Assembly (NCBI RefSeq): GCF_000407165.1
Contig: NZ_KE136480.1
Coordinates: 620,001-684,000, forward strand
Reading direction: 5' to 3'
DNA length: 64,000 nucleotides
Source of the DNA: Enterococcus haemoperoxidus ATCC BAA-382
Lineage (GTDB): Bacteria; Bacillota; Bacilli; Lactobacillales; Enterococcaceae
In this document: piece by piece, positions 33,907-52,600 of the stretch
Layout: each line of letters opens with the position of its first letter
How positions within the stretch are numbered: the first letter of the stretch is position 1
The notes under the pieces: model-generated
Databases searched by the model: none
Told to the model about the DNA's origin: nothing
What the model saw: the letters and a program-made list of their open reading frames with translations, nothing else
Program-made: the position numbers and the translations under genes

Positions 33907-33912
33907 TATAAT
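33907..33912 (+). promoter_or_regulatory. -10 box of the serC promoter
   Basis: A perfect TATAAT sits 62 nt before the serC ATG. The region 17 nt upstream is only T-rich (TTTTTT), so the -35 is weak. Confidence 0.45.
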
Positions 33913-33973
33913 GGTTTTCACATTTACTATACAAACAGTAGATGAATGATCATATCAAAGGAGAGATAAATGT

Positions 33974-35065
33974 ATGAAAACTGTTTACAATTTTTCAGCT
34001 GGTCCCGCCGTTTTACCTAAAAGTGTATTGGAAAAAGCACAATCCGAATTGGTGAATTACGAGAACAGCGGCATGTCCGTGATGGAGTTGAGTCACCGGT
34101 CCTCCCTTTTTGAAGCGATCATTGAAAATGCTGAAACCTTACTCAGAGAATTGATGACTATTCCTGATAACTATAAAGTGCTCTTTTTACAAGGTGGTGC
34201 CAGTATGCAATTTACGATGGTTCCTTTGAATTTAGCGCAAAATAAAAAAGCCCTGTACGTCAACACTGGTTCATGGGCAAAAAAAGCAATTAGCGAAGCA
34301 AAAAAACTCGATAATGTTGATGTTCAAGTGATTGCTTCAAGCGAAGACAAGAATTTCACTTATATTCCCGAAATCCGTAAAGAAGATATTCCTCAAGATG
34401 CAGCGTATGTTCACATTACAACAAACAATACGATAGAAGGTACAACGATTTATGATTTACCTGACACAGGTGACGTACCGATCGTTGCTGATATGTCGTC
34501 AAATATTCTATCGATCGACTATAACGTTTCTGATTTTGGGCTGATCTATGCAGGTGCACAAAAAAATATCGGGCCAGCAGGACTTACGGTTGTTATCGTT
34601 CGTGAGGATTTGATTGGGCAAGCGGATGTTCTTAGCGCGATGCTAGATTACGATATCCATGCAAAAAATGGCTCAATGTACAACACACCACCGACTTACA
34701 GCATTTATATGGCTAAACTTGTCTTTGAATGGATCAAAGAACAAGGTGGCGTCAGTCAAATGGAAAAACAAAACAAAGAAAAAGCAGCGATTTTATATGA
34801 TGAGATAGACTCATCTAGCCTATTTTCTTCACCAGTAAATCCAAAAGACCGTTCAATCAACAATATTCCTTTCATTACTGGAAATGATGAACTAGATAAA
34901 AAGTTCAATCAAGAAGCCTTAGCAGCAGGATTTGAGAACTTAAAAGGCCACCGTTCTGTAGGAGGAATGCGTGCAAGTTTGTACAACGCATTCCCAAAAG
35001 CTGGCGTTGTCGCTTTAGTTGATTTAATGAAAAAATTTGAAGCAGAAAATGGAGGAACAAAATAG
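33974..35065 (+). CDS. serC: Phosphoserine aminotransferase
   Basis: 363 aa class V PLP enzyme. The N-terminus is [18 protein letters not shown], the sequence continues [19 protein letters not shown] and [12 protein letters not shown], with the PLP lysine in [11 protein letters not shown] near residue 198. It converts 3-phosphohydroxypyruvate and glutamate to phosphoserine. AAAGGAGA precedes the ATG. serA follows without a gap, the ribosome binding site of serA lying inside the last codons of serC. Confidence 0.95.
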
Positions 35066-36253
35066 ATGTATGATATTAAAACATTCAATGCGATTGCCCC
35101 AGTTGGTTTAGCACGTTTTAACGAAGAAAATTTTACGATCAATAAAACTGAGACACCTGCCGGCATCATATTACGTAGTGAAAAACTCCATGATTACGAC
35201 TTTCCTGCTTCTGTTTTAGCTGTCGCTCGTGCTGGAGCTGGAACGAATAATGTTCCAGTCAAACAATGTACAGAAGATGGTATCGTTGTTTTTAACACCC
35301 CAGGTGCCAATGCTAATGCTGTAAAAGAGCTCGTTATTGCTTGTCTACTTTTATCTGTTCGTCCGATTTTAAAAGGTTCAAACTGGGTTCAAACACTGAC
35401 TGGAACAGATACTGAAGAACAAGCGGAAGCGCAGAAAAAACAATTTGCTGGTACTGAATTAGAAGGTAAAAAATTGGGCGTGATCGGTCTTGGTGCAATC
35501 GGTGCTATGGTAGCAAACGACGCCTACCGTTTAGGCATGGAAGTAACAGGATTTGATCCTTTTGTTTCGGTTGATACCGCTTGGAGTATTTCACGTCGGG
35601 TCAAACGAGCGCAAAGTATGGAAGAAGTCTTGAAAACCTGTGACTTTATTACCGTTCACGTTCCTTTATCTGAAAATACCCATCACTTGATTGGTAAAGA
35701 ACAACTGGCACAGATGAAAAAGAACGCTGTTTTGCTTAACTTTGCCCGTGGTGAATTGGTCGAAACAGACGCCGTGATTGAAGCCTTAGCGCAAGAAGAA
35801 ATCAGTAATTTTGTAACAGACTTTGCCGATGAACGTCTATTACACAATGAAAAAATCTTAGTCTTGCCTCATCTAGGTGCCTCAACAGAGGAAGCAGAAA
35901 TCAACTGTGCTAAAATGGCAGCTCGTACACTGAAAAAATTCCTAGAAACAGGGAATATCAAACGCTCTGTCAATTTTCCAACAGTTGAAATGGCCTTCAA
36001 CTCGCCATTCCGTTTCGCGATTATACACAGAAATGTTCCCAATATGTTAGGTCAAATCTCAACTGGCATCGCAAATTTAGAGATCAATATCGATACGATG
36101 ATCAACCGCAGCCGTGACGATTTCGCCTATACGATTGTCGATATTTCTGAAACAGATGAAGCAAAAATCAATGCCGCAGCTGAGAAAATCCAAGCGGCCG
36201 AAAACATCATCCGAGTCCGGACAATCAAAAATACTGAGGCGGTGAGTTACTAA
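35066..36253 (+). CDS. serA: D-3-phosphoglycerate dehydrogenase
   Basis: 395 aa, the short type. A D-2-hydroxyacid dehydrogenase Rossmann fold includes GLGAIGAMVANDAYRLGM (NAD site), the catalytic Arg region FARGELVETDAV and a His-type LPHLGASTEEAE. A C-terminal ACT domain (about 320-395, RFAIIHRNVPNMLGQISTG) probably senses serine. It makes 3-phosphohydroxypyruvate, the first step of serine synthesis. Confidence 0.94.
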   Translation: MYDIKTFNAIAPVGLARFNEENFTINKTETPAGIILRSEKLHDYDFPASVLAVARAGAGTNNVPVKQCTEDGIVVFNTPGANANAVKELVIACLLLSVRPILKGSNWVQTLTGTDTEEQAEAQKKQFAGTELEGKKLGVIGLGAIGAMVANDAYRLGMEVTGFDPFVSVDTAWSISRRVKRAQSMEEVLKTCDFITVHVPLSENTHHLIGKEQLAQMKKNAVLLNFARGELVETDAVIEALAQEEISNFVTDFADERLLHNEKILVLPHLGASTEEAEINCAKMAARTLKKFLETGNIKRSVNFPTVEMAFNSPFRFAIIHRNVPNMLGQISTGIANLEINIDTMINRSRDDFAYTIVDISETDEAKINAAAEKIQAAENIIRVRTIKNTEAVSY

Positions 36254-37497
36254 TGGTTATGATCCACCCTTTTAAAAGCATTCGTCCAGCTACTGAGTTC
36301 AGCGAAAAAATTGCTACATTACCTTATGATGTTTTAAATTCTGCAGAGGCGCGCCAACTAGGTGAAAATAACCCTTATTCTTACCTGCATATCGACAAAG
36401 CTGAAATCGATTTACCTGAAACACTTTCGCCTTATGACGATCAGGTTTACGAAAAAGCAGCAAGCAATTTACAAGCATTTTTACAAAAACAATGGCTGAT
36501 CCAAGATGACCAACCGCGTTTATACCTTTACGAATTAACAATGAACGGCCGCGCTCAAACCGGTCTTGTAACGTGTACTTCAATCACTGATTACACAGAA
36601 GGTAAGATCAAAAAACATGAATTTACTCGACCAGAAAAGGAAGTCGATCGTATCCGTCATATTGAAGCATGCGATGCGAATACTAGCCCAATTTTTCTAA
36701 CTTACCGTAAAAATGAACAGATCCAAACGTTAATGAACGACTGGAAAAAATCACATGGTCCTGTCTATGATTTTACTAGTTTTCATGAAGTTACTCACCG
36801 TGTTTGGCTTATAGATAAACCAGAAGTGATCGAACAACTCGTTACGACTTTTGCACAAGAGGTTGCGGCTTTATATATTGCAGATGGCCATCATCGGACG
36901 GAATCAGCGGTCAAAGTTGGTCAAAAGAAAAAGGATGCTCATCCTGAAGCCACCGATTCAGCAGAATTCAACTACTTTTTATCTGTGATTTTTCCTAAAG
37001 AAGAATTGGAAATTTTAGATTATAATCGTGTGGTGAATGTTCCCATCGAAGCTGATTTCTTCGAACAGTTGGAAAAGAGTTTCACTGTGGCAAAAACTGA
37101 GGCAGGAAAACCGGCTCAACCAAAAACATTTGGTATGTATTTGGCAGGTCAGTGGTACGCACTAACTGCTAAAGAAGCAATTCTATCTGATGATCCTGTT
37201 GACGGTTTAGATGTTTCTTTATTGCAAAATCATGTATTCGCAGCTATTTTCGATATTCAAGATGTGCGTACAGATAAACGGATCGATTTTGTCGGCGGTA
37301 TTCGTGGAATGACAGAACTAGAACAACTGGTGGATAGTGGACAATGGTCAGCGGCATTTGCGATTTATCCAACGACGATGGATGATTTATTGAACGTTGC
37401 GGATGCAGGTAAAATCATGCCGCCAAAATCAACTTGGTTTGAACCTAAATTATTAAGTGGATTATTTGTGCACGATCTAGAGACAAATAACGCATAA
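36253..37497 (+). CDS. DUF1015 family protein
   Basis: 414 aa with the family start HPFKSIRPATEFSEKIATLPYD, the central LYIADGHHRTESAVK and the ending MPPKSTWFEPKLLSGLFV. DUF1015 proteins are kinase-like in predicted fold and are widely coupled to serA/serC. A serine kinase activity has been shown for an archaeal SerK of this group, so a serine-related role is a reasonable inference. The ATG overlaps the serA stop by 1 nt, with GGTGAG 6 nt upstream. Confidence 0.88.
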   Translation: MVMIHPFKSIRPATEFSEKIATLPYDVLNSAEARQLGENNPYSYLHIDKAEIDLPETLSPYDDQVYEKAASNLQAFLQKQWLIQDDQPRLYLYELTMNGRAQTGLVTCTSITDYTEGKIKKHEFTRPEKEVDRIRHIEACDANTSPIFLTYRKNEQIQTLMNDWKKSHGPVYDFTSFHEVTHRVWLIDKPEVIEQLVTTFAQEVAALYIADGHHRTESAVKVGQKKKDAHPEATDSAEFNYFLSVIFPKEELEILDYNRVVNVPIEADFFEQLEKSFTVAKTEAGKPAQPKTFGMYLAGQWYALTAKEAILSDDPVDGLDVSLLQNHVFAAIFDIQDVRTDKRIDFVGGIRGMTELEQLVDSGQWSAAFAIYPTTMDDLLNVADAGKIMPPKSTWFEPKLLSGLFVHDLETNNA

Positions 37498-37523
37498 AAC
37501 TGTAAAATAGAAGAATAAAATCT

Positions 37524-37563
37524 AAGCTTGGACAAAAGCAAAATTTTTGTCCAAGCTTTCTTG
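37524..37563 (+). terminator. Terminator of the serCA operon
   Basis: Stem AAGCTTGGACAAAA with TTTTGTCCAAGCTT followed by TCTTG; a good hairpin with a modest T-tail. Confidence 0.75.
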
Positions 37564-37639
37564 CAAATAAACCGAAAAGACTAGATAATAGTCTTTTCTA
37601 AAATACTCTGGAAAAGTTAGGAAATAAGTGAGGTCAACC

Positions 37640-38434
37640 ATGCGAAAACAATTAAAAGAAGCCAAACGAATCGTCATCAAAGTTGGGACAAGTACCTTGA
37701 TTTACCCCAACGGAAATATCAATTTAAGTGCCATCGATCAATTAGCCTTTACCTTATCCGATTTACGTAACCAAGACAAAGAGATCATCTTAGTCTCGTC
37801 TGGTGCAATCGGTGTTGGCTTAAATAAGTTAAACATGGACAAACGACCCCCGACCATTCCAGAACAACAAGCAGTTGCTGCGGTTGGGCAAGCGGAGTTG
37901 ATGAACATTTACAACCAGCGCTTTTTGACTTATAACCAGCAAATCGCCCAATTATTATTAACAAGAGATGTGATCGAATATCCTGAGAGCCGCAAAAATG
38001 TAACGAACACAATAGAACAACTCCTGAAAATGGGGATCATTCCAGTCATCAACGAAAATGATACTGTCGCAATCGATGAATTAGATCATCTAACAAAATT
38101 TGGCGACAATGATCAACTATCGGCAATCGTAACTCAACTGATACAAGCAGATGCGTTGATCATGTTATCTGATATCGATGGGTTCTTTTCTGATAATCCG
38201 AATACTAATAAAGACGCCACACTCTTTTCTGAAATCAATGAGATCAACGACGAGCTTTTACAATTAGCAGGTGGCAAAGGCAGCCGCTTTGGAACTGGCG
38301 GTATGTACAGTAAATTGAAAGCTGCAGAACGTGTACTAGCACATAATGGCGCCATGATTTTAGCAAATGGGCAGCAGCCTAAGATTATTTTTGATATTTT
38401 AAATGGTGAAATGATTGGTACGTTATTTATTTAG
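37640..38434 (+). CDS. proB: Glutamate 5-kinase
   Basis: 264 aa amino-acid kinase fold: [43 protein letters not shown] and [18 protein letters not shown]. It phosphorylates glutamate in proline synthesis and is feedback-inhibited by proline. It lacks the C-terminal PUA domain of the E. coli form, normal for lactic acid bacteria. The ATG at 37640 has GTGAGGT 6 nt upstream. proA follows after 22 nt. Confidence 0.94.
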
Positions 38435-38456
38435 TTCAAAAAAGGAGGAACGTTTC

Positions 38457-39704
38457 ATGACTGATTTAATACAATTAGGCAAACAAGCGAAAGAAACAGC
38501 TTATCAACTAGGTTTGATGGACGCAAAAACAAAAAATGATCTGTTACTGCATATGGCGGATGAGCTAGAAAAAAATACTGCTACAATCTTACTCGAAAAT
38601 CAGAAAGATTTAGCCACAGCCACAGAAAACGGGATTACTGAAACAATGCTTGATCGTTTACGTTTAACTGATGAACGAATTAAAGAAATGGCTGATGGCA
38701 TCCGTCAAGTTGCAACCTTGCCTGATCCAATCGGTGAAGTCGATAAAATGTGGAAAAATGAAGATGGCTTGATGATCGGTAAACAACGTGTGCCATTAGG
38801 TGTCATCGGCATCATCTATGAATCTCGTCCAAATGTGACAACAGATGCAGCCAGCCTTTGTTTTAAAACCGGAAATGCCGTAATTTTACGTGGCGGAAAA
38901 GAAGCATTTCACTCAAATCAAGTCTTAGTAACTGTTTTACAACAAGCGTTAAAACAAAAAGGCGCTTCCCCTTTTGCGATTCAATTTGTTGCTGATACTT
39001 CTCGGGAAACGGCTCAAAAATTGATGAAATTAAATGACTATCTAGATGTGTTGATTCCTCGTGGTGGTGCTAACCTGATCAAAACGGTTTTAACAACCGC
39101 AACTGTTCCAGTGATTGAAACAGGAACCGGTAATTGTCATGTTTATATCGATAAAGATGCCCAATTAGAAATGGCTACTAATATCATCGTCAATGCAAAA
39201 TGCCAACGTCCTTCTGTTTGTAACTCAGCAGAAACATTGTTGATCCATCAAGATGTAGCAGCAGATTTCCTTCCTGTTATCGAAAAAGCTCTGAATGAAT
39301 ATAATGTAGAATTACGTGCCGATGAACGAGCGATAGCAATTTTCAAGCAATCGATCCCAGCTACTGAAGAAGATTGGGAAACTGAGTTCAATGACTTCAT
39401 TTTAGCCGTTAAAGTCGTAGATTCTTTAGACGAAGCCATTCAGCATATCAATCGCTACAATACGAAACATTCTGAAAGTATTATCAGTGATAATTATTTT
39501 GCTACACAACAATTTTTACAGCAAGTTGATGCGGCGGCTGTTTATGCTAATGCTTCTACACGTTTTACAGATGGATTTGTTTTTGGTTTCGGTGCAGAAA
39601 TCGGTATTAGTACACAGAAACTGCATGCTAGAGGTCCGATGGGATTAGCGGAATTGACCTCTACAAAATATATTGTTTATGGCGATGGACAGTATCGGAA
39701 ATAA
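38457..39704 (+). CDS. proA: Gamma-glutamyl phosphate reductase
   Basis: 415 aa aldehyde-dehydrogenase fold. Visible motifs are [33 protein letters not shown] and the catalytic Cys in [17 protein letters not shown]. It makes glutamate 5-semialdehyde, the proline precursor. The ATG at 38457 has AAGGAGG 7 nt upstream, better than in-frame starts inside proB. A terminator follows. Confidence 0.95.
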
Positions 39705-39715
39705 TTTTTAATTCA

Positions 39716-39759
39716 AAAATACTCGATCAATGAAGCTCTATTGATCGAGTATTTTTTCT
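39716..39759 (+). terminator. Terminator of proBA
   Basis: A 13-bp stem ATACTCGATCAAT with its complement, a 7-nt loop and TTTTTTCTT. Confidence 0.9.
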
Positions 39760-39809
39760 TATTTAATTTAGGATAACTACCTAATTTCATTTAACTGAAA
39801 TTGATCTTA

Positions 39810-42485
39810 TCAGGGAGTTTCACTCACTTGCCATAATATAGCCGCTTTGTATTGTCCTTTTTGAATAACCTCATTAGAAAAAACATTTAACTGCAATCCT
39901 TGTTTATTAGAATCCCAATTTTCACTAACATTGTAAATGCCAGTGCCTGACATTGTACCAACTTCAATTGGCTGAGATTCTCCTTCTTTTAATGCCACCT
40001 TAGTCGTATCATTTTGCTTATAATATAATGCTCTTGGAAGAACTTCACTTGGACTATCTTGACTAGTCAACGGTTTCGCTAAGGTGGCTGTTAATGTCCA
40101 ACTTGTTTTCTTCTTCCGTGTATCACCAATGATAAGCGGAACATCATATTTTGGTTGTTCGCCTTTAATAAATGATTTTGTTAAGTACTTATCCCCAAAA
40201 TTTAACGTTTTTGGAAACGAGTCTACAAATAACGTCCCTTTAAATTGATACTGTACTGTTTTTTCTTCTTTATCTATGGAAATAGCAGATTCATTATTTG
40301 GTGCTTTGACTAACTCAAAATGTTTTCCAACGAGTGAACTAATCACTACCTGAATCGTTGCTTCTTTTGTTAAATCAATCGTTGTCCCTGCATCTCCTCT
40401 TAAAACAACAGGATCACTTAAGGGGGTTCCCTCTTCGTCTACAAATTGTACCTGAACATTTTGTTTTTTCTCACCTACTATTAATTCAGTTACACTACTT
40501 TCTTTATCTGGACGATGTGCTTGACTCCCTATTATTTGAGCTCTAATCACATCTCCACCTTTTAAAGGAAAACCTACAGCAATGTTATGACGTCCATTTA
40601 CTTTTGCTGGAATTATGTTTGATACAACTACACCATTAACAGAAACTTTAAGCTGGTACTCACGATCAAATTCTATATTTTGATTTCCTATATCTACGGT
40701 GATATTCCCATCCCCAGCATAAGCTTCATTAATTAGTGGAGCATTAACGCTCCATCCTTCCCAATTAGAAGAATCTGAAACTACTTTTGTTACAGTTGTA
40801 CTTGTTTTATCTGCTTGACCTGCTTCATGACCAACAATTTTTGCCGTAATCACATCTTGTTCAACTAAAACGTTAGTTAAAGGTATAATAAATTCTCCGC
40901 CATTAAACGTAAACCGTTCTGTCCCAACTTTCACACCGTTTACGGATACAACTACATCATAGTTCCGATCATTAAATTTATTTTGTGGTGGGACACTACC
41001 AGTGATTACATCATCACCATGATCAGCATCATCAAGTATCGGTGGATCAACTATCCAGTTTGCCCAATTCTCTTGACCTTCCTTATTTTCTAATACGATG
41101 GTTTTTACTGTTTTACTTTGTTTTGCGGCTTCTCCAGGCTCATACCCAATTATATAGGCTTCGATAACATCACCGGTAGCTAAGTTTTTACCAAATACTG
41201 GTGCTCCATATACTCCTGGCTCAGGATCCAGTCCTCTATAAATGATTTCACCGTTTAAAACAATAACCAGTTGATATGTTCGTGAATATTGTCGATTTTG
41301 ATCCGGAACACTCCCTGTTATATTTGTTTCTTCATCGTATGCAGTTGAAATCGTTGGTGGTTTTACTTGCCATTGTTCCCATAGAGTCCCGTCTTGTCCG
41401 ATTGTATAGTAGCTGGGGGTAGATAGATTGGTATCTAAATAGCCATTTTCATGTACTGCTTTTTCTTTAGCAACAACTTGTGCTTTAATAACTGTACCGG
41501 ATATAAATTTTTGAATAGAGTTATATCTCCAATCACCTGATGCATCAATCGGAATATTTTGTGCGATAATCTTATTATTTGCACTTAATCTAATTGTGCA
41601 ATCAGCTGGGTGACGATTTTCCATATTCTGTTTGGTGATCCCTCCAAAAACACGATCATTTTCTGAAGTGATCGTTGTTGGATCTACTGGGTTTTCAATC
41701 CAACTGTTTAATTCTGTCACGTCATCATATAAATAACTACGAGATGGAGATGGGGAAAAGCTTAATGCCGTACCTCCTTGACTTGTTGCAAGGTCAACAT
41801 TGTAATACGACTTGCGCTCAATCAAAATCCCTGTATCTTTACTCCACCGTCCCAAATCAATGGTCATATCTATATTTTGCCATAAATCGGACATTGCGAT
41901 CGGATAGACTGGGGACAGAACATTAAAGGTTTCCGTACTTTCATTGTAATAAGCTCTATCTCTACCGGCTATAACACCAACATTTTTAGTTAGCAACTTT
42001 TGCATAGTAATATTGATACTGACCCCAATACTACCATTCCTATCGACTTGTCCCCCAATATACTCTTTATAATTAGGTGTACTAAAAAATGGTATAGCTA
42101 TCTCAGGATCGATCTTAATTCTACTCACGGTCTGCGCTCCAAGTCCAAAAACAGCCACAGCTTTTGATACTGATTTAAAATGCAAAATCCCCTTTTTGTT
42201 GTCTAGTATCTGAATAGTATCCACATATCCACTTCCGATACTTAAACGAGGTTGCGGACCCATCATTGGCTCCGTGCTCGATGTAGCAGTGGATGACTCC
42301 GATGACTCTACCTCAGTTTCAGTAGAACTTGTAGATTGATTGACTGATTGACTAGTCTCTTGTGCCGTAGACTGTTCGTCTGAATGATCACTCTCTTGCG
42401 CTATAGCATTAGTTGGTATCAGCAGTACCAGAATTGAACCTAAGAAAATAATCCTTTTGAGTATTGATTGTCTTTTAGTTCTCAT
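39810..42485 (-). CDS. Large WxL protein with Ig-like repeats (locus 2)
   Basis: 891 aa. Signal peptide (residues 1-29), a Ser/Thr-rich spacer (about 30-75), then a beta-rich globular region. Four Ig-like repeats of about 95 residues each open with a W-x-x-x-P or W-x-V-x-P motif (SWIENPVD, WQVKPPTISTAYDEETNITG, WIVDPPILDDADHGDDVITG, WSVNAPLINEAYAGDGNITV). A MucBP-like unit (VQFVDEEGTPLSDPVVL) follows, and a WxL domain ends it (SWTLTATL and ILWQVSETP). It is the last gene of locus 2 and should be displayed far from the wall. Adhesion is a reasonable inference. Confidence 0.88.
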   Translation of the reverse strand: MRTKRQSILKRIIFLGSILVLLIPTNAIAQESDHSDEQSTAQETSQSVNQSTSSTETEVESSESSTATSSTEPMMGPQPRLSIGSGYVDTIQILDNKKGILHFKSVSKAVAVFGLGAQTVSRIKIDPEIAIPFFSTPNYKEYIGGQVDRNGSIGVSINITMQKLLTKNVGVIAGRDRAYYNESTETFNVLSPVYPIAMSDLWQNIDMTIDLGRWSKDTGILIERKSYYNVDLATSQGGTALSFSPSPSRSYLYDDVTELNSWIENPVDPTTITSENDRVFGGITKQNMENRHPADCTIRLSANNKIIAQNIPIDASGDWRYNSIQKFISGTVIKAQVVAKEKAVHENGYLDTNLSTPSYYTIGQDGTLWEQWQVKPPTISTAYDEETNITGSVPDQNRQYSRTYQLVIVLNGEIIYRGLDPEPGVYGAPVFGKNLATGDVIEAYIIGYEPGEAAKQSKTVKTIVLENKEGQENWANWIVDPPILDDADHGDDVITGSVPPQNKFNDRNYDVVVSVNGVKVGTERFTFNGGEFIIPLTNVLVEQDVITAKIVGHEAGQADKTSTTVTKVVSDSSNWEGWSVNAPLINEAYAGDGNITVDIGNQNIEFDREYQLKVSVNGVVVSNIIPAKVNGRHNIAVGFPLKGGDVIRAQIIGSQAHRPDKESSVTELIVGEKKQNVQVQFVDEEGTPLSDPVVLRGDAGTTIDLTKEATIQVVISSLVGKHFELVKAPNNESAISIDKEEKTVQYQFKGTLFVDSFPKTLNFGDKYLTKSFIKGEQPKYDVPLIIGDTRKKKTSWTLTATLAKPLTSQDSPSEVLPRALYYKQNDTTKVALKEGESQPIEVGTMSGTGIYNVSENWDSNKQGLQLNVFSNEVIQKGQYKAAILWQVSETP

Positions 42486-42567
42486 GATTTTCTCTCCATT
42501 TTTATTACATATTTTATCTTTGACCCTACTTCTTTAAGATTACACATCTGCTATTTTTAAGCTTGAT

Positions 42568-42894
42568 TTACTTCCATGTCATCTTAGCCATTATACTTTT
42601 CAAACAATAAACGCCGACCAATACAATCAGTAATGAAAACCCCAGAAGCACCCAAATAACAGATGTTATTAAATCTCCTGTTGAAGGGAGCTTTCCATGT
42701 GAATTTGTAGTCACCTCTCCTTGCCTCAAAGGAGGCTGAAGTATTGAGGGAAGCAATAGGTTATCCTCATCTTTTAGAAAAGTGATCGATACATCAGTCG
42801 TACTGTCTAACTTATCTATAGCTTCAACTTTTTCACTGTATAAAAAACAGCTCACCATTACAAAAATCAATAGTATGACCCCATTTCTTTTCAT
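42568..42894 (-). CDS. Small LPxTG-anchored protein of WxL locus 2
   Basis: 108 aa with a signal peptide (to about SEKVEA), the short TDVSITFLK segment also seen in the WxL proteins, a Pro-rich linker, the sortase motif LPSTG, a membrane helix and a short basic tail. The ATG at 42894 has GAGGAGA 6 nt upstream. It matches the 106-aa LPxTG protein of locus 1 but sits after the second WxIP rather than the first. Confidence 0.85.
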   Translation of the reverse strand: MKRNGVILLIFVMVSCFLYSEKVEAIDKLDSTTDVSITFLKDEDNLLLPSILQPPLRQGEVTTNSHGKLPSTGDLITSVIWVLLGFSLLIVLVGVYCLKSIMAKMTWK

Positions 42895-43016
42895 TTTGAT
42901 CTCCTCTTTCTTTGTTATAGCATTAATACGCACCACGATTACTTAAATCATTATTAATAACTAAAGTTATTTATTGGAAATTTTTGTAACTTCTATTTAT
43001 CTTTTAGAGAAATAGA

Positions 43017-44054
43017 TTAGGATCGTTTAATTTTAGGATTTTTTTTATTATTGATTAAAGCTAGGATCACTACTATTAAAAGAATCACGGGCAATAGCAA
43101 CCACCAATAATTAAAACTTGAATCCTCCTTTTCAGTCGCTTGCTTATTGATTTGTTCTGCTTCAATTTTTGTAAAGTTAAAATTTTTTACCCACGTCCAA
43201 TTGGTTCCCTGTTCTGTTGTCACCTTGATATCTGCTGTATATTCTCCAGCAGTCATTTTTTGATCATAAAAAGACACAGGCAAATCAATCATTGAATGCG
43301 GAGCCATTCTCATCTCTTTTTTATTAAAATCAATCAATACTTTTGTACTATTTTTCTCTCTAATCTTAATATTAGCCGACATTTTTTCAACAAAAACTCC
43401 TTTAGTATTTGAAATATTTACAAATAAGGAGTAAACGCCGTCTTTTAATTTTAGATAAACATCGTTGAGCTTCATTACTGGTTTTATTTTTTTTGTATCT
43501 GCTTCACTGAGTAAGACACCGATTAAAAAAGCAAACTTATTCTGGATAAAGTTACTTCCATCCTGAGAATCACTCTCTCTGACAATTGGTTTCAATTGAA
43601 TCCCACCCGTTATGTAACCTTCAAATTCTACTTTTGGAGCCATGATCGTAAAGTCGATCGTTTCACTACTATTCGGCGCTAAAGTGACTTCCTCTGGGCC
43701 TGTCATGATTTCAGCGAGATCGTAATTCAACGAAACATCTTTTTCTAGTTTGTTAGGTCCATACTCAATGACACCATTTCCATTTGTTTTTGCGCTATTC
43801 ACATTGATTTCAACTTTTAGCTGTCTTGTGGATGTATTATTTAATTTTAGCTGAATCACTTGTTTCTGTCCAGTTTGTATTAAAAGATCGTAGTACCCAA
43901 TATTTTTATCTTGCTGATTCTCAGGGAACAATACCTCATAAGAAAAATCCTTGATTAAATCAGATGCATTTTCATTAGAAAAAACTGTAATAGGCTTACC
44001 AAATAGGAAAATGATTCCTAAAATTAGATAATATAGTCGTCTTTTTTTTATCAT
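43017..44054 (-). CDS. DUF916/DUF3324 WxL-interacting protein, second of locus 2
   Basis: 345 aa. Signal peptide, DUF916 (starting FSYEVLFPENQQDKNIGYYD), DUF3324 (about 175-300) and a C-terminal membrane helix (about 318-336) with a basic tail NNKKNPKIKRS. Its closest relative in the window is the locus 3 protein at 60775-61854 (same FPENQ-x-K-x-IGYY start), not the first WxIP of locus 2. This suggests it is specialised for a different WxL partner, perhaps the 891-aa protein next to it. Confidence 0.9.
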   Translation of the reverse strand: MIKKRRLYYLILGIIFLFGKPITVFSNENASDLIKDFSYEVLFPENQQDKNIGYYDLLIQTGQKQVIQLKLNNTSTRQLKVEINVNSAKTNGNGVIEYGPNKLEKDVSLNYDLAEIMTGPEEVTLAPNSSETIDFTIMAPKVEFEGYITGGIQLKPIVRESDSQDGSNFIQNKFAFLIGVLLSEADTKKIKPVMKLNDVYLKLKDGVYSLFVNISNTKGVFVEKMSANIKIREKNSTKVLIDFNKKEMRMAPHSMIDLPVSFYDQKMTAGEYTADIKVTTEQGTNWTWVKNFNFTKIEAEQINKQATEKEDSSFNYWWLLLPVILLIVVILALINNKKNPKIKRS

Positions 44055-44163
44055 TCACTATTTCCTATCGTCTAAGCTATGTAATGCACGACTTAAACTA
44101 TCCTTCCTTATATTTTATGCTAACACTAATTGTTTAGATCTCTACTTATAATAAATTTTCTAA

Positions 44164-44204
44164 ATGAACAACTTATAACAATAACTATCTACTCAATCTA
44201 TACT
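44164..44204. repeat. Inverted repeat arm left of wxl gene (locus 2)
   Basis: 41 nt beginning ATGAACAACTTATAACAATA, complementary to 44990-45028: 26 identical positions, a 2-nt indel, then 12 more identities (TCAATCTATACT). Encloses the wxl gene at 44250-44963. Confidence 0.88.
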
Positions 44205-44249
44205 CTATTTTTATTTTTTAGCATTCAATTATTTCCATTGGTTAAAAAT

Positions 44250-44963
44250 TTATTGTTGTAAATCGTCTAGTGTCCATGATACTTGACCTGTAAATGACTC
44301 ACCGGAAGCTTTATCTGCTTGTGCATCCGTTACAACTAATTTCACATCTTTAATCAATGTTGAAACTCCGCCTTTAATGTCGTTTGCTTTTGCTTTTACC
44401 AATACTGGTTGTTGTGTTGTCGCTCCAGCTTCTACAGATAACGATTTAACTTTTCCATCACCAAGTGTGATCCCTGCATTAGGATCTAATGCTTTAAGAA
44501 CACCTTCATCACCTGGTTTGTTTGCAATAAAATCATTGTCTTCTCCGATTGTTGTACCAATATCATATGCTTGTGCATCATTTAAATTAAACGTTAGTTT
44601 AGATGCTAATTTCTTAGAAGCATCAGCTGTCGTCAATTCTGATAATTTAACTTTTAATTCCCATGGTGTAGAAACAGTTTGTCTGTCATCATTGACAACC
44701 AAATATTGGTCACCTACCACAGTGTTATTAAACGTTGCTGAAGCTCCAACAGCTTTTTGCTCACCAAATTGGAAAGAAGACGGTTTCCAAACAAGTGATA
44801 AGTTGTTTTTATAAGGTTTGTTTTCCCCAGGGATCGTTGGTTCGTCTGACTTAAAGTTCACACCAACATCTGTTTTATCTTCATATGTTTTTGCATCAGC
44901 TGAGGTAGCAAATGCCATTAATGCTGCTGTTGATAATAAGGTAACTAATACTGCTTTTTTCAT
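44250..44963 (-). CDS. WxL-domain surface protein (locus 2)
   Basis: 237 aa, the same length as the locus 1 WxL protein. Signal peptide ends at SADA; then a WxL domain with PWELKVKL near residue 100 and SWTLDDLQ at the C-terminus. It shares long runs with locus 1, including GEQKAVGASATFNN and YLVVNDDRQ. It follows the 74-aa protein by 76 nt and precedes the second WxIP gene by about 195 nt. Like its paralogue it is enclosed by inverted repeats. Confidence 0.93.
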   Translation of the reverse strand: MKKAVLVTLLSTAALMAFATSADAKTYEDKTDVGVNFKSDEPTIPGENKPYKNNLSLVWKPSSFQFGEQKAVGASATFNNTVVGDQYLVVNDDRQTVSTPWELKVKLSELTTADASKKLASKLTFNLNDAQAYDIGTTIGEDNDFIANKPGDEGVLKALDPNAGITLGDGKVKSLSVEAGATTQQPVLVKAKANDIKGGVSTLIKDVKLVVTDAQADKASGESFTGQVSWTLDDLQQ

Positions 44964-44989
44964 TTTTTTACCGTCCTTTTATATTGAAA

Positions 44990-45028
44990 AGTATAGATTG
45001 ACGATAGTTATTGTTATAAGTTGTTCAT
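44990..45028. repeat. Inverted repeat arm right of wxl gene (locus 2)
   Basis: 39 nt, the complement of 44164-44204. It lies in the 5' leader of wxl before its ribosome binding site. Confidence 0.88.
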
Positions 45029-45039
45029 TCTTTGTTTTA

Positions 45040-45264
45040 TTATTGTAGAAGTTCTATTTGGTCTCTCAATAGAGTGAATAAGTAGGCAATCAAGCCTAGG
45101 CTAGTTAACGAAATAAATAGTAAACTAAAGTTTAAGGTTAGTAGAGATTTTTTCTTTCTTAATTTTTTGATCAAGAAAACATCTCGCGATAACAGAATCA
45201 AGAAAACTACTAAAGACACAATAGCGATACCACCTAATATAAATATCCATAGATAATCGATCAT
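45040..45264 (-). CDS. Small two-helix membrane protein of WxL locus 2
   Basis: 74 aa paralogue of the locus 1 protein at 24801-25025: MIDYLWIFILGG at the start, two membrane helices with a basic loop (KKLRKKKS) and the same C-terminal RDQIELLQ. No domain is recognised. It lies 51 nt after the WxIP gene. Confidence 0.75.
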   Translation of the reverse strand: MIDYLWIFILGGIAIVSLVVFLILLSRDVFLIKKLRKKKSLLTLNFSLLFISLTSLGLIAYLFTLLRDQIELLQ

Positions 45265-45315
45265 TTATCTCACCCGCTTTCAGATTTTTTTCAAACTAAA
45301 GGATTCATCCTTTAG

Positions 45316-46380
45316 CTAGTCAATCAATTTTTTCTTTCTTTTTCCTTTTTTCCTTTTTTTCTTCCATTCAATTTCCATTCTTTTTCTTCTGACAAAAAGC
45401 ATTGAAACAATAATTAGCATTAAACTTAGACAAAAAATCGTTGCAGCCTTGATCCATGTTGGCGTAATGATCTTAAACCCACTCTCATCATTCATTGTTT
45501 TTGCTTGTTCACCTGTGATTGTAAATTCTTTTTCAAACTTCCAATCACTGTATCCATCGTTTGCATTCATCGTTAAAATATAGTTGCCCGCTCGAACGGT
45601 TCCTGTGCCCCAATCCATTTCAAAATCAAAATGACTGTTTGGCGCCAACATATAATCTTCAACTTTCTTTTTCTTCAAGACTTTTTGACTATCTTTTTCT
45701 TTGACCTCAGCGATGATCTCTAAATTAGAAAGTATCTTGGGTTCAGGATTTTGTAAGGTGGTTAAAATCATTTTCTTACCACGTTTCAATGTTGACTTAG
45801 CATCTATTAAGTTCAATGTTTTAGAATCTTTATAATCATCTCCAGTTTCAGAGATAGTCAGACCGATTCGATAAGAAAATTTACTAGAAACCTGTTCTTC
45901 ATTTTCAGAATCGTCCACTTCAAAAACCAGTGCCCCCATTTTCACCCCTTTGTAATGTTCTGTAGGAGGTATAAGCTTAAAAATAGCTTCCTTCTCTTCA
46001 AAGTTTCCAACCGTTAAACTAGGTGTTTCGACTTTTAGAATTGAGCTAATTGGATCATGAAGAGTTGTATCCAACATTTTTTTGTCATTTGTATATTCAA
46101 TCGTTCCGTTGTCACCTGTAAATGCATCTGTTGCATATATTTTTAATTTAATTGGCTCTTTTTGTGTACTTTTTACTTTTACCTTTAAAAGTTGCTCTTC
46201 TCCTGGGACTGTTTGGATATAAAAATAACTTTTTTCTGGATCGATTTGTTTTCCGTTCAGAACGGCTGACACGGTATACCCTAAATTGGATGACTCGTCG
46301 GCAGCTAAAGATCTATTAGGAAATAAAAACAAGAACAAACTTGCAAGTACTAGTGTGTATACTAACGTGTGTTTTTTCAT
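45316..46380 (-). CDS. DUF916/DUF3324 WxL-interacting protein, first of locus 2
   Basis: 354 aa, the direct counterpart of the locus 1 WxIP: YTVSAVLNGKQIDPEKSYFY, then NFEEKEAIFKLIPP, KRGKKMILTTLQNPEPKILS, HFDFEMDWGTGTV, a membrane helix at about 318-336 and a Lys-rich tail. The start overlaps the 226-aa gene by 4 nt (ATGA), so the two are translationally coupled. Confidence 0.92.
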   Translation of the reverse strand: MKKHTLVYTLVLASLFLFLFPNRSLAADESSNLGYTVSAVLNGKQIDPEKSYFYIQTVPGEEQLLKVKVKSTQKEPIKLKIYATDAFTGDNGTIEYTNDKKMLDTTLHDPISSILKVETPSLTVGNFEEKEAIFKLIPPTEHYKGVKMGALVFEVDDSENEEQVSSKFSYRIGLTISETGDDYKDSKTLNLIDAKSTLKRGKKMILTTLQNPEPKILSNLEIIAEVKEKDSQKVLKKKKVEDYMLAPNSHFDFEMDWGTGTVRAGNYILTMNANDGYSDWKFEKEFTITGEQAKTMNDESGFKIITPTWIKAATIFCLSLMLIIVSMLFVRRKRMEIEWKKKRKKGKRKKKLID

Positions 46381-47057
46381 TTGACGTTTACTTTCTCCTT
46401 ATTAAAATAGATTGAACAATCCTTTTTTATCGTTTCAATATAAATGTCTGTGTAGTATTTATTATTTGTATCTAGATAAATTTCTCCACTTAATCGTACA
46501 CTCTCTTTTCCTTGCCATTGAGCGATAAACGAAGTTGCTTCTTTCTTTGCTTTGTCTTCTGTCTCAAATGGCCCTAGCGTGTCAATGGTTTCTCCTTCTT
46601 CATAGTAAAAATCTATTTTTCGGAAATCGTTCATTGCAAGAACGAATATGATATAAACTAAACTCAAAGCTAAGATCATCAAGACAAAGTAAATCAATCC
46701 AACTATATTGAATAATAAAGATAGAAAAAATAATATATTCAAGCTTAAAAATAATAAAACAGATACTATATGCTGTTGCTCTTTTTTATTAACCAAGTAA
46801 AACAAATAGGTAGAAAACATAGTCCATACCATTAATAGAAAACCAAAAACAAGATAAATAATCGATTCGGTCCAATTGTCATTTAATAACGATAGCAATT
46901 GAAGGAAAAATGACAGTCTTTTATCTATATAGAAATAAGCTTCTTTATAAAATAAATAGAAGTTTATTAAATATATGATCCATCCTGCCACAAGGATTCC
47001 TTCTATAAGAAAGAAACGCCGTAAAAAAATATTTTTTATCGTATTTGTGTTACTCAT
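46377..47057 (-). CDS. Membrane protein of WxL locus 2, unknown
   Basis: 226 aa with four predicted membrane helices (about residues 13-32, 56-82, 97-118, 120-145) and a soluble C-terminal domain (GPFETEDKAKKEATSFIA ... GEIYLDTNNKYYTDIYIE). It is the paralogue of the 214-aa protein in locus 1. No known family is recognised. Confidence 0.75.
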   Translation of the reverse strand: MSNTNTIKNIFLRRFFLIEGILVAGWIIYLINFYLFYKEAYFYIDKRLSFFLQLLSLLNDNWTESIIYLVFGFLLMVWTMFSTYLFYLVNKKEQQHIVSVLLFLSLNILFFLSLLFNIVGLIYFVLMILALSLVYIIFVLAMNDFRKIDFYYEEGETIDTLGPFETEDKAKKEATSFIAQWQGKESVRLSGEIYLDTNNKYYTDIYIETIKKDCSIYFNKEKVNVK

Positions 47058-47117: not shown

Positions 47118-47804
47118 TTATAGACAAAGAACATACCCAATTGTTCGAATCGTTTTTAAATATTGGGGTTCTGATACATTTTTTTCTATTTTTTTCCGAA
47201 TATGAAAAACTATGTTTGCTACACGATACTGCTTATTCGCCACATGTCCGTTCCATAATACTTTGTAGAGTTCTTCATATGTTGCTCTTTGCCCGCATTT
47301 TCCTTTTAAATAACTAACTAACTTGTATTCTAGCGGTGTCAGAGAAATTTCTTGCTCATTTTCTATACAAATCGAAAGGTTGTCACTATTTAACTTCAAA
47401 CGCTCTTCAATCATTTTTGGCACACTTGCTTCTTTTGTCTTCGTTTGGAGCATATTAGATAGAATTAGTTGAAATTCATTAGGTGGTGTGTGTTGGTCAA
47501 AAACAATTGTTGCTCCTAATTCTAGATATATGAAACGTTCAATTGGCGTACTATCTGTCACTAATAAAAAAATCAGCGGATAAGTATTACTTTTTTCTTT
47601 TAAAAGTAATTCACAAATCTGACCTACTCTCTCACCATTGGGCTTCACTGCACAATCAATAATGATTGCCTCCAATACTGGATAATTACTTCTGTCACTT
47701 TCCTGTTCCAGTGAAAAAAGATTGTAGCCTTTTTCTTTCAGGACATCTATATAAGAAGAAGATGGGTTTTCTAGTGGATATAATCCGATGTTAACCATAT
47801 ACAT
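47118..47804 (-). CDS. Winged-helix transcriptional regulator of WxL locus 2
   Basis: 228 aa. The C-terminal OmpR-type domain shows LTPLEYKLVSYLKGKCGQR, YRVANIVFHIRKKIEKN and IRTIGYVLCL. The N-terminal half is receiver-like with an Asp in AIIIDCAVK, but no partner kinase is near. AAGGAGG precedes the ATGs at 47804 and 47798; the former is taken. It heads locus 2 and lies just outside the left inverted repeat of the recombinase element, whose inner edge carries a TATAAT facing this gene. Confidence 0.8.
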   Translation of the reverse strand: MYMVNIGLYPLENPSSSYIDVLKEKGYNLFSLEQESDRSNYPVLEAIIIDCAVKPNGERVGQICELLLKEKSNTYPLIFLLVTDSTPIERFIYLELGATIVFDQHTPPNEFQLILSNMLQTKTKEASVPKMIEERLKLNSDNLSICIENEQEISLTPLEYKLVSYLKGKCGQRATYEELYKVLWNGHVANKQYRVANIVFHIRKKIEKNVSEPQYLKTIRTIGYVLCL

Positions 47805-47880
47805 TCTTCCTCCTTTCATCTTTGATATTTTTTTGCTATACTACGAGGTAGAAAAATGATTGAATTTCCCTGATTTATTT

Positions 47881-47901
47881 TTTCTCAGAATTAGTGATTA
47901 T
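47881..47901. repeat. Perfect inverted repeat, left end of the recombinase element
   Basis: A 21-nt sequence, TTTCTCAGAATTAGTGATTA plus T, that is the exact reverse complement of 49300-49320. With the other copy it encloses the tyrosine recombinase gene, 1440 bp end to end. Confidence 0.92.
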
Positions 47902-47967
47902 AAGAAGAAATGTTCTAGTCGTTATAACACGCTGTTTTTTTAGCTGTGATGACGCTTTTTTTGACGG

Positions 47968-49083
47968 TTATTCTTCTAAATTCAGTTCGGCATCCAGAAT
48001 AGAAATGGCCTTTTCTCTAGTTTCCCATAAAGAACTGGCATACGTATCTAAGGTCAGCTTGATCGATTGATGGCCTAGTAAACGGCTTAAGGTGGCAATA
48101 TCGCTCCCATTTTCAATGCATCGTGTCGCAAAGGTATGCCGTAAGGCGTGGAAATGGATCGGCTCTATGTCAGCTTTGGCAAGGGTCTTTTTAAACCAAT
48201 AATTGATCAGTCTAGGTTCTGCGTATGAGTGTTTATAGTTGATCACATAGGTACTGACCGCCTCCGCTTTTTTCTTTGTTAAGTAAGTAAGTAAATTTTG
48301 GGCAATCGGTATTTTCCGCACCGAGCTTTTTGATTTGGGCAGATCAAATACAATCTCTGTCTTGGTTGTTTTCCCTGGCACAGACACTCTCTGGATTGTG
48401 CGGACCACTTGGATCGTTTTGCTTTCTAAATTGATATCGGACCACGTTAAAGCCCCGATTTCACCAATTCGCATGCCGGTGTACAACGCGATAATGATCG
48501 GTGAGCACCCTGGCTCTTTCAGGGCAGCTTTTTCTAATATTCGTTGTTGTTCCCGAGTTAAAATGGCGATATCTTTTTTCCGGATCGCTGGCAGGACAAT
48601 GCCGTCACACGGGTTTTCTGGAATGGCTTTTTCAAAGTAGGCTTTATTCATGGCACTTTTAAAGATCGTCAAGACATTATGGATCGTGGTCAGACTTAAT
48701 TCTTTATCCGATAAAAGAAGCATTAATGCCGTGATGTCTTTTTTCTCAATATGAAGTAATTTTTTCTTTCCTATATAAGGCAAGATATGTTTGCGCATTT
48801 TTGTTTGATACGACGCATAGGTCGACTGTTTGATTTGACGAACGATTAAGTGATCCAACCAGTACACGAGCCATTCCTCTACTGTCCCTTGAAATTGGGT
48901 CGTAAGCTGCTTTGAAAATGTCTGGCGTGCTTTTTGACGTTCTAAGGTTTGTTTGACCTCCCTATATTTTTGACCGTAAATGTAGCCGTAGAGCAGTTTT
49001 CCTTGTTCATTTCGCCCTTTTCGGTAGCGCCCTTCCCAGCGGCCATCTTTTCGCTTATAAATATTTTCGCCTTTTTTAGTTAT
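47968..49083 (-). CDS. Tyrosine recombinase / phage-type integrase
   Basis: 371 aa if started at the ATA codon 49083-49081. Domains: N-terminal AP2-like region (KGENIYKRKDGRWEGRYRKG), a SAM-like core-binding domain (about 60-150) and a catalytic domain with Arg in LYTGMRIGEIGALTW, HALRHTFATRC, LLGHQSIKLTL and the nucleophile Tyr in TLDTYASS. It resembles Tn916/phage integrases. AAGGAGG lies 8 nt before ATA-ACT-AAA; no ATG, GTG or TTG is at a proper distance. A GTG at 49131 gives a 387-aa form but has no ribosome binding site. No excisionase or other mobile genes adjoin it. Confidence 0.9.
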   Translation of the reverse strand: MTKKGENIYKRKDGRWEGRYRKGRNEQGKLLYGYIYGQKYREVKQTLERQKARQTFSKQLTTQFQGTVEEWLVYWLDHLIVRQIKQSTYASYQTKMRKHILPYIGKKKLLHIEKKDITALMLLLSDKELSLTTIHNVLTIFKSAMNKAYFEKAIPENPCDGIVLPAIRKKDIAILTREQQRILEKAALKEPGCSPIIIALYTGMRIGEIGALTWSDINLESKTIQVVRTIQRVSVPGKTTKTEIVFDLPKSKSSVRKIPIAQNLLTYLTKKKAEAVSTYVINYKHSYAEPRLINYWFKKTLAKADIEPIHFHALRHTFATRCIENGSDIATLSRLLGHQSIKLTLDTYASSLWETREKAISILDAELNLEE

Positions 49084-49219
49084 CGTAAGTTCCTCCTTCG
49101 TTTGACGAGAGAATTGACGGCTAGAAATCACAAAAAACCGTTTTTTTCATATTTTTTTCATTTTTACCCAATAATAAAACGATAAAAATTAAAGAACTTT
49201 TGTTTTTTTGTTATAGACT

Positions 49220-49250
49220 TTTCGTTTTCTTTGTATTAGAATAGAATTTA
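49220..49250 (-). promoter_or_regulatory. Probable promoter of the recombinase gene
   Basis: On the minus strand TTGTTC is followed by a 17-nt spacer (GTTAAATTCTATTCTAA) and TACAAA, inside the inverted-repeat-bounded segment and about 140 nt before the ribosome binding site. Confidence 0.4.
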
Positions 49251-49275
49251 ACGAACAAAATCGTTTATTTATAAC

Positions 49276-49338
49276 AAAAAGAACTAAATTTTCTTTCTCA
49301 TAATCACTAATTCTGAGAAAGAAAATTTAGTTCTTTTT
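49276..49338. terminator. Long bidirectional hairpin overlapping the right inverted repeat
   Basis: A 25-bp perfect stem (49276-49300 with 49314-49338) encloses a 13-nt loop, with T-rich tracts beyond both arms. The 21-nt recombinase repeat (49300-49320) spans the loop and the base of the right arm. Confidence 0.85.
49300..49320. repeat. Perfect inverted repeat, right end of the recombinase element
   Basis: Exact 21-nt complement of 47881-47901; the next base on each side differs, so the identity ends sharply. Confidence 0.92.
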
Positions 49339-49552
49339 TGTCATCTTTTTATTTATAAATAGATTATACTAAAAGAAAAACGATAGAGCGTCTCGTTGAA
49401 GCGCTTACATTTCTCGTTGATGTTTTTTATTAAAGAACTAGATAAAAACATAGTAATAACCAGACTCTTCAAAAAAACAATAAATACCATAGAACCTAAT
49501 GCTATGTAAAATACATCCCTTTACACTCTATTCACAATAAAAAATGATTGTC

Positions 49553-49607
49553 ATTAAAAAATACTCAGTTGATAAAGTTAGCTAAAGCAGCTTTATCAAC
49601 TGAGTAT
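49553..49607 (-). terminator. Terminator of the adhesin gene
   Basis: A 17-bp stem ATACTCAGTTGATAAAG with its complement and a T-run (TATTTTTTAA) on the minus strand, 20 nt past the adhesin stop codon. Confidence 0.88.
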
Positions 49608-49626
49608 CAATTTTTCTTTAAATATT

Positions 49627-52600
49627 CTATTGCTCTTTTTTACGTTTACGAATGATAACCATTGCTACTTCAGCTAACAGAATAGCGCCAATCATTATCA
49701 AGCTAGTGCTAACTTTTTCACCTAGGCTAGCTAAATAGCCTTTTTGAGGTGGGGTAATAGCTGGTGAAACATCTGATGGAATATTGACTTGTGTCGCTTT
49801 ATTCGTCACGTTTAAAGACAATAGTTTAGGTTCGTTTTTTGCAGATGACTCAATAGTAAAAGTAACTTTTTCTTGTGATAATTGATAGCCATTTGGGGCT
49901 TTTTGCTCTACAAAGTAATAAGAACCCGGCGCCAATTTATTCACATGAATTTGGCCTTTTTCATCTGTCACTAAATTTTCCTCAACCATCATTCCAGACT
50001 GCTGATAAAGATTAAATGCTGCACCACTTAACGCTTTTCTAGTCATCTCATCTGTCTTATTCAATTGAACAGAGCCTTGATAATTGACATAATCTCCTAA
50101 ATCAAGGATAAGCGATTCTGGTTTTCCCATTGTTTCCTTGATAGTAAATGTCTTAGGTGCTGAATTCAGGAGGTAGCCCGATGGGGCCTTCACTTCCACT
50201 AATGTGTATGTCCCACCTTTTAAACCTTTAGCAAAAATCTCACCATCAACTCCAGAAATAAGCCTTGTAATAGCATTATCCTCTTTGTCATAAGCATTGA
50301 CAACTTTGCCATTTTCATCGTGAATTTCAAATTCTGCTCCAGCTAAAGGCTCCGAGACTAGTTCTCCTTTAGCAACCTTTCGTGCTTTGATTCCTACTTC
50401 ATAATTTACAATTGATACTTCTTCCACAGGAGGTGTTGTCTCTTCACCTGCTTTTACCGTAAAGTAGATTGGCTGTTTATTGATTACATAGCCGTGTGGT
50501 GCTTCGATTTCAATGATTTTATAGTAGCCAGGACCTAATTTATCAATGTCCAGATGACCATCTTCCCCTGCCTCGATATACTCTTTTCCATCGATTTGTA
50601 CAAGTTCTTCCGATGAGCCTTTCGCTCTATAAACAGCAAATTTTGCTCCAGCTATCGGTCGACTTCCTTCACCAACTTTCGTTAAACCTACTTTTCCTTT
50701 AAAATTCTGGAATGCGCCCAAATCAATTTGTGTAGGTTTCCCTTCATGTGATTGTGCTACGTTAAACAGAATCGGATACTCATTTTTAACATAGTCTTGT
50801 CCATTCTCATCAACAGGCGCTTTTGTTTCAACCAAATAGTAACTTCCTGGTGCTAAACCATCGTATTGAATGAGTCCATCACGATCAGATGTCAAGTTTG
50901 CCACTACTAACTGTCCGTCTGTTTTATACACAGAAAATTCTGCCCCAGCCAAGGGATTCCAATGACTATCCACCTTTTTAATTTTGAACGATCCTTGGTA
51001 GTTTGTCATTTCAGCTTGAACTGCCTTTGGTTTTCCAACGGTATTGGGTTCAATTACTACTTTGACTTTTTCAGTGTTCAATAGATATTCTACATTCGGG
51101 CCAACGCTCACTTCTTTAAAGTAATACGTTCCTGGAGCGATATCTTCGAGTAATAATTTCCCATCAACGTTCGTTGTGCCTGTTTGAACAACTTTTCCTG
51201 TTGTATCTTCTAAAGCAAATTCGACCCCCGCTAATAACTTATTGCCACTGGCTGTTTTGCCATACTTAGTTATTTCTGCAGAACCCTTATAATTGATGAA
51301 ATCAGCAGATAATTCAATTGTTTCTAATGGCTTATCTGATTTTTCAGGTACTACGATATTCTCGATGGCTTCTTTATTTAATAAAAAACCATTTGGAGAT
51401 GATAATTCTTTTATTACGTACTCTCCAGGTCCGACATCTGTAAATATCACTTTTCCATCTGCCGCGGAGTTTACTTTTTTAATAGGGGTTGTCACATTAT
51501 TTTTATTAAACAATCCGAATTCAGCTCCAGCTACAGGAACTCCATGCTGATCTTTTTTAATAAAACTAATCGCAGACTGGTAATTAATAAATGCATCATG
51601 CATTCCAACTTGAACAAGTTGGTGATCACTATTTTCCACTATTTCAAAAGGAATCGCATTCGTGTTGAGAATATACCCTGTCGGTGCTTTCGTTTCAGTC
51701 AAACGATATTTGCCAACAACTAATCCTAGAATAATTAAACGACCAGTCTTATCCGTTACTAACGCTTGGTTCACAGGTTTAGTAACCCATGTATCAGTAA
51801 GGCTGTTATAGACTTCTAATTTAAATTGTGCACCTACTAACAGTTGTCCTTTTTCGCCTTGTTTTTTTAATTCAACTTTTCCAAGAGGATTTTGGATAAC
51901 TAGTGGTGTTCCATTTGTTGTAGATTCATTGATTTCGACATCTTTGCCATCAACCAAGCTTTGATCGATTGTGTAACCTAATTCAGTTAATGCTCCTGTC
52001 TCTTTCAAAATGTAGTGTCCATAAGGTAGATTACCGAAAGTTATCAAACCGTTGATACCAACGGTGCCGGAACGTAAAATTTGTGTTTGGTTTTTATCCC
52101 AAAGTTCAAAAGTTGCTCCTTCCGGAAGTACTTGACCTAATGCACCAACTTTTTTAATAATCAATTGACCACGTTCACCAGAGCTAGAGCCGCCACCTTC
52201 AATAATTGTGACGTTCGTGTGTCCTTCTCCTTCTTCATCGATTTCAGTTTTCCCATCACTTGTAATATGAATATCATTTGAAACTGTTCCTGTCGTTCCC
52301 TCTAAGAAAATCATTGTCTTATATTCCATGATCAATGGGCTCTCTATTTGTTGGTATTCACCGATAAATTTAAGGATCATCTTTTGTTGCCCAGTTGTAT
52401 TATCTGTTGTTGACTCTACTGTGTAGTCAGTATCTTTCACTAATTCTTTGGTTCTATCAATAGCAATATTTCCCTCACTATCTACTTTCGTTCCAAAAAT
52501 ATGCAATGTATCAATATTAATAGATTGATTAGGTGATGGTGTATCTTCTACTGTTACATCATAAAGTGTTGATTGACTGCCGTTTAGTGTAACAGACCAG

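Follow-up and report, generated by a model that had tools for sequence, protein, structure and literature searches.

A probable self-inverting segment carrying its own tyrosine recombinase beside a WxL surface-protein locus of Enterococcus haemoperoxidus

The window analysed here is a stretch of 64,000 nucleotides (nt) from Enterococcus haemoperoxidus ATCC BAA-382 (contig NZ_KE136480.1, positions 620,001 to 684,000). Within it, the segment 47881-49320 is probably a switch for phase variation. It contains the gene of its own tyrosine recombinase, designated int, and adjoins the gene of an OmpR-type regulator and a locus of WxL surface proteins. A preliminary description of this DNA had proposed a self-acting switch that toggles the WxL locus through the regulator. 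This proposal is supported by natural inversions at two related loci and by a regulator adjoining 113 of 132 repeat-bounded recombinase genes, although the window copy itself was not seen inverted.

The two ends of the segment (47881-47901 and 49300-49320) are exact reverse complements of each other over 21 nt and extend with mismatches to 29 nt (93% identity). Only one other pair of perfect inverted repeats of at least 15 nt, at a spacing of 200-3000, was found in the window, measuring 27 nt and located at 44163/45003; in 20 dinucleotide-shuffled windows, the longest perfect inverted repeat per window measured 13-16 nt. A single sizeable gene, int, lies between the arms, and its product matches the Pfam family Phage_integrase (PF00589, E 5.8e-25). 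Repeat search and Pfam thus bear out the earlier statement that a tyrosine recombinase is the one gene lying within exact 21-base-pair inverted repeats. The protein has the catalytic domain of the tyrosine recombinases and phage integrases (R, K, H-x-x-R, H/W, Y): R221, K266, H328, R331, H354 and Y364, which we take to be the catalytic residues, are invariant across 16 aligned family members. The nearest solved structures by sequence are PDB 6EMY, 6EN0 and 6EMZ ('Int protein', best E 9.6e-14), presumably the Int of Tn1549. Relatives in phages and plasmids are all below 60% identity, and the seven best plasmid matches are from Enterococcus. The segment gave a single 55-nt match to plasmids, and a 12-kilobase (kb) stretch of the window gave none.

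Inverted relatives, which the preliminary description had advised looking for, were found at two related loci, so both orientations occur in the family. At locus L131 (genome G018), the regulator lies at the 5' end of int. When this locus was compared with its orthologues in two sister species, L127 (G001) and L128 (G009), the flanks were collinear and the repeat-bounded segment alone was reversed, exactly at the repeats; flipping the L131 segment in silico turned the split alignment into one collinear match. The second case is contig C1 of genome G005, which carries the same stretch of about 40.1 kb at its start and at its end, in what looks like the untrimmed overlap of a circular sequence. 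In the outer parts compared (1-14000 and 25001-40127), the two stretches differ by insertions and deletions only, with no mismatches. This overlap contains one int locus in opposite orientations at the two ends, 99.9% alike, and the swapped half-sites confine the crossover to 14 nt, TATAACTTCTACTT. We infer that the two copies are one chromosomal place assembled twice; were they a true duplication, an inversion at near-zero divergence would still be shown.

The window gene belongs to a large set of paralogues. The host genome contains 13 members, including the window copy (at least 40% identity, nearly full length), and 12 of them are bounded by inverted repeats. Two near-twins, B and C, encode proteins 99-100% identical to that of the window copy, A, and a further paralogue, D, is 81% identical. 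With a threshold of E 1e-70, at least 6-13 members per genome were found in all 22 genomes of the genus, and at least one in 37 of 105 genomes (four of 17 genera) of the taxonomic family; these family-wide counts are lower bounds, since at most 18 candidates were scored per genome. In a first set of loci, repeats scoring at least 18 surrounded 63 of 75 ints and none of 366 control open reading frames (ORFs), the controls being other ORFs of 250-600 residues from the same loci. Among shuffled flank pairs, 2 of 1500 reached a score of 16. In the full set, which covers part of the int complement of each genome, inverted repeats (score of at least 17) bound 132 of 163 ints. Among the 163 are loci from seven plasmids, six of them from E. 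raffinosus or E. gilvus and one from E. faecalis, and from two contigs of faecal viromes; the set counts both G005 copies and leaves out two broken int ORFs of less than 300 residues and one duplicate. The 113 adjoining OmpR-type regulators lie past the 3' end of int in 111 loci and past its 5' end in two, and 19 of the 132 loci have no regulator adjoining. WxL or WxL-interacting genes are present within the first seven co-oriented genes at 101 of the 132 loci, some of which end early; one E. raffinosus copy faces an accessory-Sec locus. We also observed, on two faecal virome contigs (L116 and L117), distant int relatives between inverted repeats of 24-25 nt, so the design may reach beyond enterococci.

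Across the family, the repeats have a common anatomy, with two 9-nt arms flanking a 7-nt overlap. Overlaps and arms were compared in 131 pairs, one of the 132 being too close to a contig end. The window pair, among those measured, consists of two inverted sites with a common overlap. Within pairs, mismatches affect 1 of 917 overlap positions versus 155 of 2358 arm positions, an agreement that is biased upward by a repeat finder seeded on 8-nt exact words, which favours a matching centre. Where the dyad is clear (108 pairs), the overlap is identical within every pair, arm position -10 is always C and +10 always G, and 64 distinct overlaps occur among the loci, with agreement between loci in 79 of 5778 comparisons. 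In the host genome, copy A has the overlap TTAGTGA, B and C both have TTAGTCA, and D has TTAACCC; eight further overlaps occur, each at a single locus. Searching genome contigs for the exact repeat pattern returned 12 single matches in unrelated taxa, which we read as chance. Inside the segment ends, tandem GTCAA-type repeats in the direction of int were found at 77 and 37 of the 132 loci, with none on the reverse strand and none in shuffles; they resemble the arm-type sites of integrases.

Over most of its length, the segment of copy A shows 96-100% identity to those of B and C. The figure drops to 65-84% in 100-nt steps at the repeats and immediately beyond them, and to 14-75% farther out, and B and C additionally share about 400 nt of the regulator at 85-100%. 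Segments that are alike between flanks that drop off at the repeats point to homogenisation of the cassette, whether through gene conversion or through the recombinase. The host genome also contains a recombinase-less segment, E (L023 5761-6211; C2:702761-703211), with a paired TTAGTTA overlap and a P_inv-like promoter motif (see below; TGGACT-17-TAAAAT) upstream of a large surface-protein gene; it is probably a deletion derivative served in trans. Separately, at L030 (host genome C2; 2533-3257 and 9636-10739), a repeat pair without int lies between an apparent rsmG-parA-parB cluster, recognised by eye, and a regulator gene, with a repeat-less int about 6 kb downstream. This pair keeps tandem GTCA-type repeats and has no good P_inv match, and the arrangement suggests that some recombinases may act on separate segments.

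The orientation of the switch would matter through a promoter-like element, P_inv (TAGACT, 17 nt, TATAAT-like box), that reads outward across the repeat at the int 5' end (Table 1). Scored with a TAGACT consensus taken from alignments of the very loci examined, matches of at least 11 read outward at 40 of 102 loci, versus inward at 2 of 102 and in 4 of 510 shuffles. In the window, the hairpin across the right repeat has a folding energy of -30.8 kcal/mol (z -11), and no terminator was found in the leader of the window flipped in silico, from the left site to the ribosome site of the regulator. Terminators were sought at 110 of the 111 loci that have the regulator past the 3' end of int: one is predicted in the present path of P_inv at 73, compared with 23 in the regulator-ward path. 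A terminator also follows int, ahead of the repeat, at 92 of 132 loci. At the flipped locus L211, the leader extends to the regulator start, with a weak promoter match. Since P_inv points away from the regulator and into the terminator hairpin, the window is predicted to show the OFF state.

Table 1. Features of the switch and its surroundings (window coordinates)
Feature	Position	Strand	Remarks
Co-oriented surface-protein genes downstream of the regulator	39810..47057	-	presumably controlled by the regulator
WxL gene	44250-44963	-	in the surface-protein block
WxLIP gene	45316-46380	-	in the surface-protein block
Gene without Pfam hit	46377-47057	-	in the surface-protein block
Regulator, Trans_reg_C (OmpR-type) DNA-binding domain	47118..47819	-	presumed target; start at 47804 suits the ribosome site better
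Left crossover site	47882..47906	+	TTCTCAGAA-TTAGTGA-TTATAAGAA, 9-7-9; overlap 47891-47897
Tandem repeats GCGTCA / CCGTCAA, directly after the int stop	47950..47967	-	candidate arm-type sites
int, tyrosine recombinase	47968..49131	-	387-residue ORF from GTG
Tandem repeats TCGTCAA / CCGTCAA, 12 nt apart, near the int start	49102..49120	-	candidate arm-type sites
P_inv, promoter-like element TAGACT-17-TAGAAT	49214..49242	+	reads rightward, away from int and regulator
Long hairpin with T-run, straddling the right repeat	49274..49340	.	predicted intrinsic terminator; half inside, half outside the segment
Right crossover site	49295..49319	-	TTCTCAGAA-TTAGTGA-TTATGAGAA; 7-nt overlap as in the left site; overlap 49304-49310
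TATAAT outside the segment, pointing inward to int	49363..49368	-	tentative candidate promoter in the window copy; in ten aligned relatives, a conserved TATATTGTTATAAT stands at the matching place

In the mechanism that we propose, Int would bind the 25-nt sites, in which 9-nt arms surround the 7-nt overlap, would probably also bind the tandem GTCAA-type repeats, and would invert the segment. In the present orientation, transcription from P_inv would meet a hairpin that takes part of its stem from outside the segment, leaving the regulator without a P_inv transcript (OFF). After inversion, P_inv would face the regulator, the hairpin would be split, and the regulator would then activate the WxL surface locus (ON). 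This effect of orientation on the expression of the neighbouring genes is suggested by promoter and terminator predictions. The 7-nt overlap may act as a private address that keeps recombination between the paired sites of a single locus, which would let several switches in one genome act independently.

A number of observations weigh against this model. The window copy is known in one orientation only, in its single assembly, and B, C and D are oriented to their regulators as the window copy is. The flipped state was found in only 2 of the 113 loci with a regulator, and would therefore be rare or short-lived in sequenced cultures. Inverted repeats of the required score are lacking around 31 of the 163 ints, four of which have a regulator downstream. 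Concerning the promoter, the enrichment of P_inv was measured with our own consensus and shrinks when the textbook TTGACA is used instead (11/102 outward, against 2/102 inward and 11/510 in shuffles). A score of 10 is not reached at 44 of 102 loci, and the inverted loci themselves match weakly (TTGACT-17-TAACAT at L131, TTGACT-17-TAAAGT at L211/L129). Moreover, 37 of 110 loci have no predicted terminator in the present path of P_inv, and neither the window copy nor B-D has one between int and the left repeat. The regulator may also own a promoter outside the segment. Finally, int of copies A-C seemingly starts at ATA, a poor start codon. Among six ints whose starts were compared, A, B and C have ATA, with a good ribosome site upstream, at the position of the ATG start of D, and the window protein more likely has 371 residues, starting at ATA 49081-49083 behind GGAGG. 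Such a start may hold the recombinase level low.

The ATA in place of ATG, the common orientation of A-D and the bias of 111 to 2 would also fit a locked relic, in which the family inverts but the window copy no longer does and the regulator is driven by its own external promoter. We consider this unlikely, given that int is open and keeps its invariant residues and that the overlaps are perfect pairs in A-D; the recombinase-less segment E keeps paired overlaps too, which suggests that the sites are still used. The preliminary description had instead placed the control in a TATAAT of the left repeat reading toward the regulator. This box does exist, on the minus strand and spanning the inner edge of the repeat, and inversion would make it CATAAT. 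However, a simple sigma-70 scan of 47700-49700 found neither a -35 partner nor a promoter-like minus-strand site there, and the box is not the element enriched in the family, so that a flip acting by re-wiring it rather than through the internal P_inv is very improbable. It is known that inverted core sites of tyrosine recombinases yield inversion and not excision. For this reason the other alternative raised earlier, a minimal mobile element ended by inverted repeats, is also very improbable. Its spread, through transposition or an exchange of cassettes, could have produced the near-identical A, B and C, but the identity of A to B and C that falls at the repeats would be explained by gene conversion too. 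The ends carry inverted core-overlap-core sites and not the direct attachment sites of an integrative element, the overlaps of A and of B and C differ, a regulator adjoining 113 of 132 loci is unlike scattered insertions, and the rearrangements observed are inversions.

The probable switch shares features with several known systems. In Salmonella, Hin is a serine recombinase acting at one locus, and a promoter near one end of the H segment switches the neighbouring operon. The hin gene is described as lying inside the segment that it inverts (PMC5903667, PMC2784873). The window and the repeat-bounded family loci share this layout, with the recombinase gene enclosed by its own sites. Unlike Hin, the window enzyme is not a serine recombinase but a tyrosine recombinase of the phage and transposon type, and several paralogous switches with differing overlaps exist per genome; the system is thus laid out like hin, yet is not a Hin. 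The fim recombinase genes lie beside the invertible segment, and no regulator gene serves as intermediate target. In E. coli, this segment is reported to control a surface structure through FimB and FimE (PMC2784873). In the window, on the contrary, the recombinase lies inside the segment and a regulator gene would be the intermediate target. The cwpV/RecV system of C. difficile is presented as having 21-bp repeats, a site-specific recombinase, a cell-wall protein and an intrinsic terminator proposed in the OFF transcript, with the promoter outside a 195-bp segment and recV elsewhere (PMC2784873). Repeat length, type of enzyme, surface protein and predicted terminator in the OFF path are alike in the window; in contrast to cwpV, the enriched promoter-like element and the recombinase are inside the segment, and the crossover site cuts through the terminator. 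In the pneumococcal PsrA/CreX system, a tyrosine recombinase is described as encoded within the inverting hsdS locus (PMC7096588). That system shuffles hsdS coding sequences, whereas a promoter would be inverted here. The Int proteins of conjugative transposons, the closest solved structures, integrate and excise their element; unlike them, the window enzyme would invert the segment of its own gene. Our searches of open-access papers returned no published account of WxL phase variation by inversion in Enterococcus.

In the surface-protein block downstream of the regulator, the Pfam search left three further ORFs unnamed. A second, unrelated class of inverted repeats of 27 nt (TGTGAACAACTTATAACAATAACTGTC-like) occurs in the window at 44163-44189 / 45003-45029 and at 23932-23958 / 24771-24797. 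In 12 of the 12 pairs found, these repeats enclose a gene of about 240 residues (a WxL gene in the window). The enclosed gene is co-oriented with its operon neighbours and the repeat sequence is conserved across loci and species; these repeats perhaps allow pairing of the messenger RNA ends or form a protein site.

WxL loci are common in enterococci and their relatives, and to our knowledge little is known of what switches them on. The chances seem about even that the genus possesses an array of orthogonal, address-coded inversion cassettes: in the 22 genomes with their at least 6-13 ints each, most of those examined would each occupy an invertible-type segment with a 7-nt overlap private to it and would gate the OmpR-type regulator of one surface locus, mostly WxL, giving a clone combinatorial surface coats, with A, B and C homogenised as units, perhaps by the recombinase itself. 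If many WxL loci are gated by such heritable coin-flips, bulk expression studies of cultures in the OFF state would overlook them, and the differing overlaps would offer a natural set of mutually orthogonal inversion sites for tyrosine recombinases.
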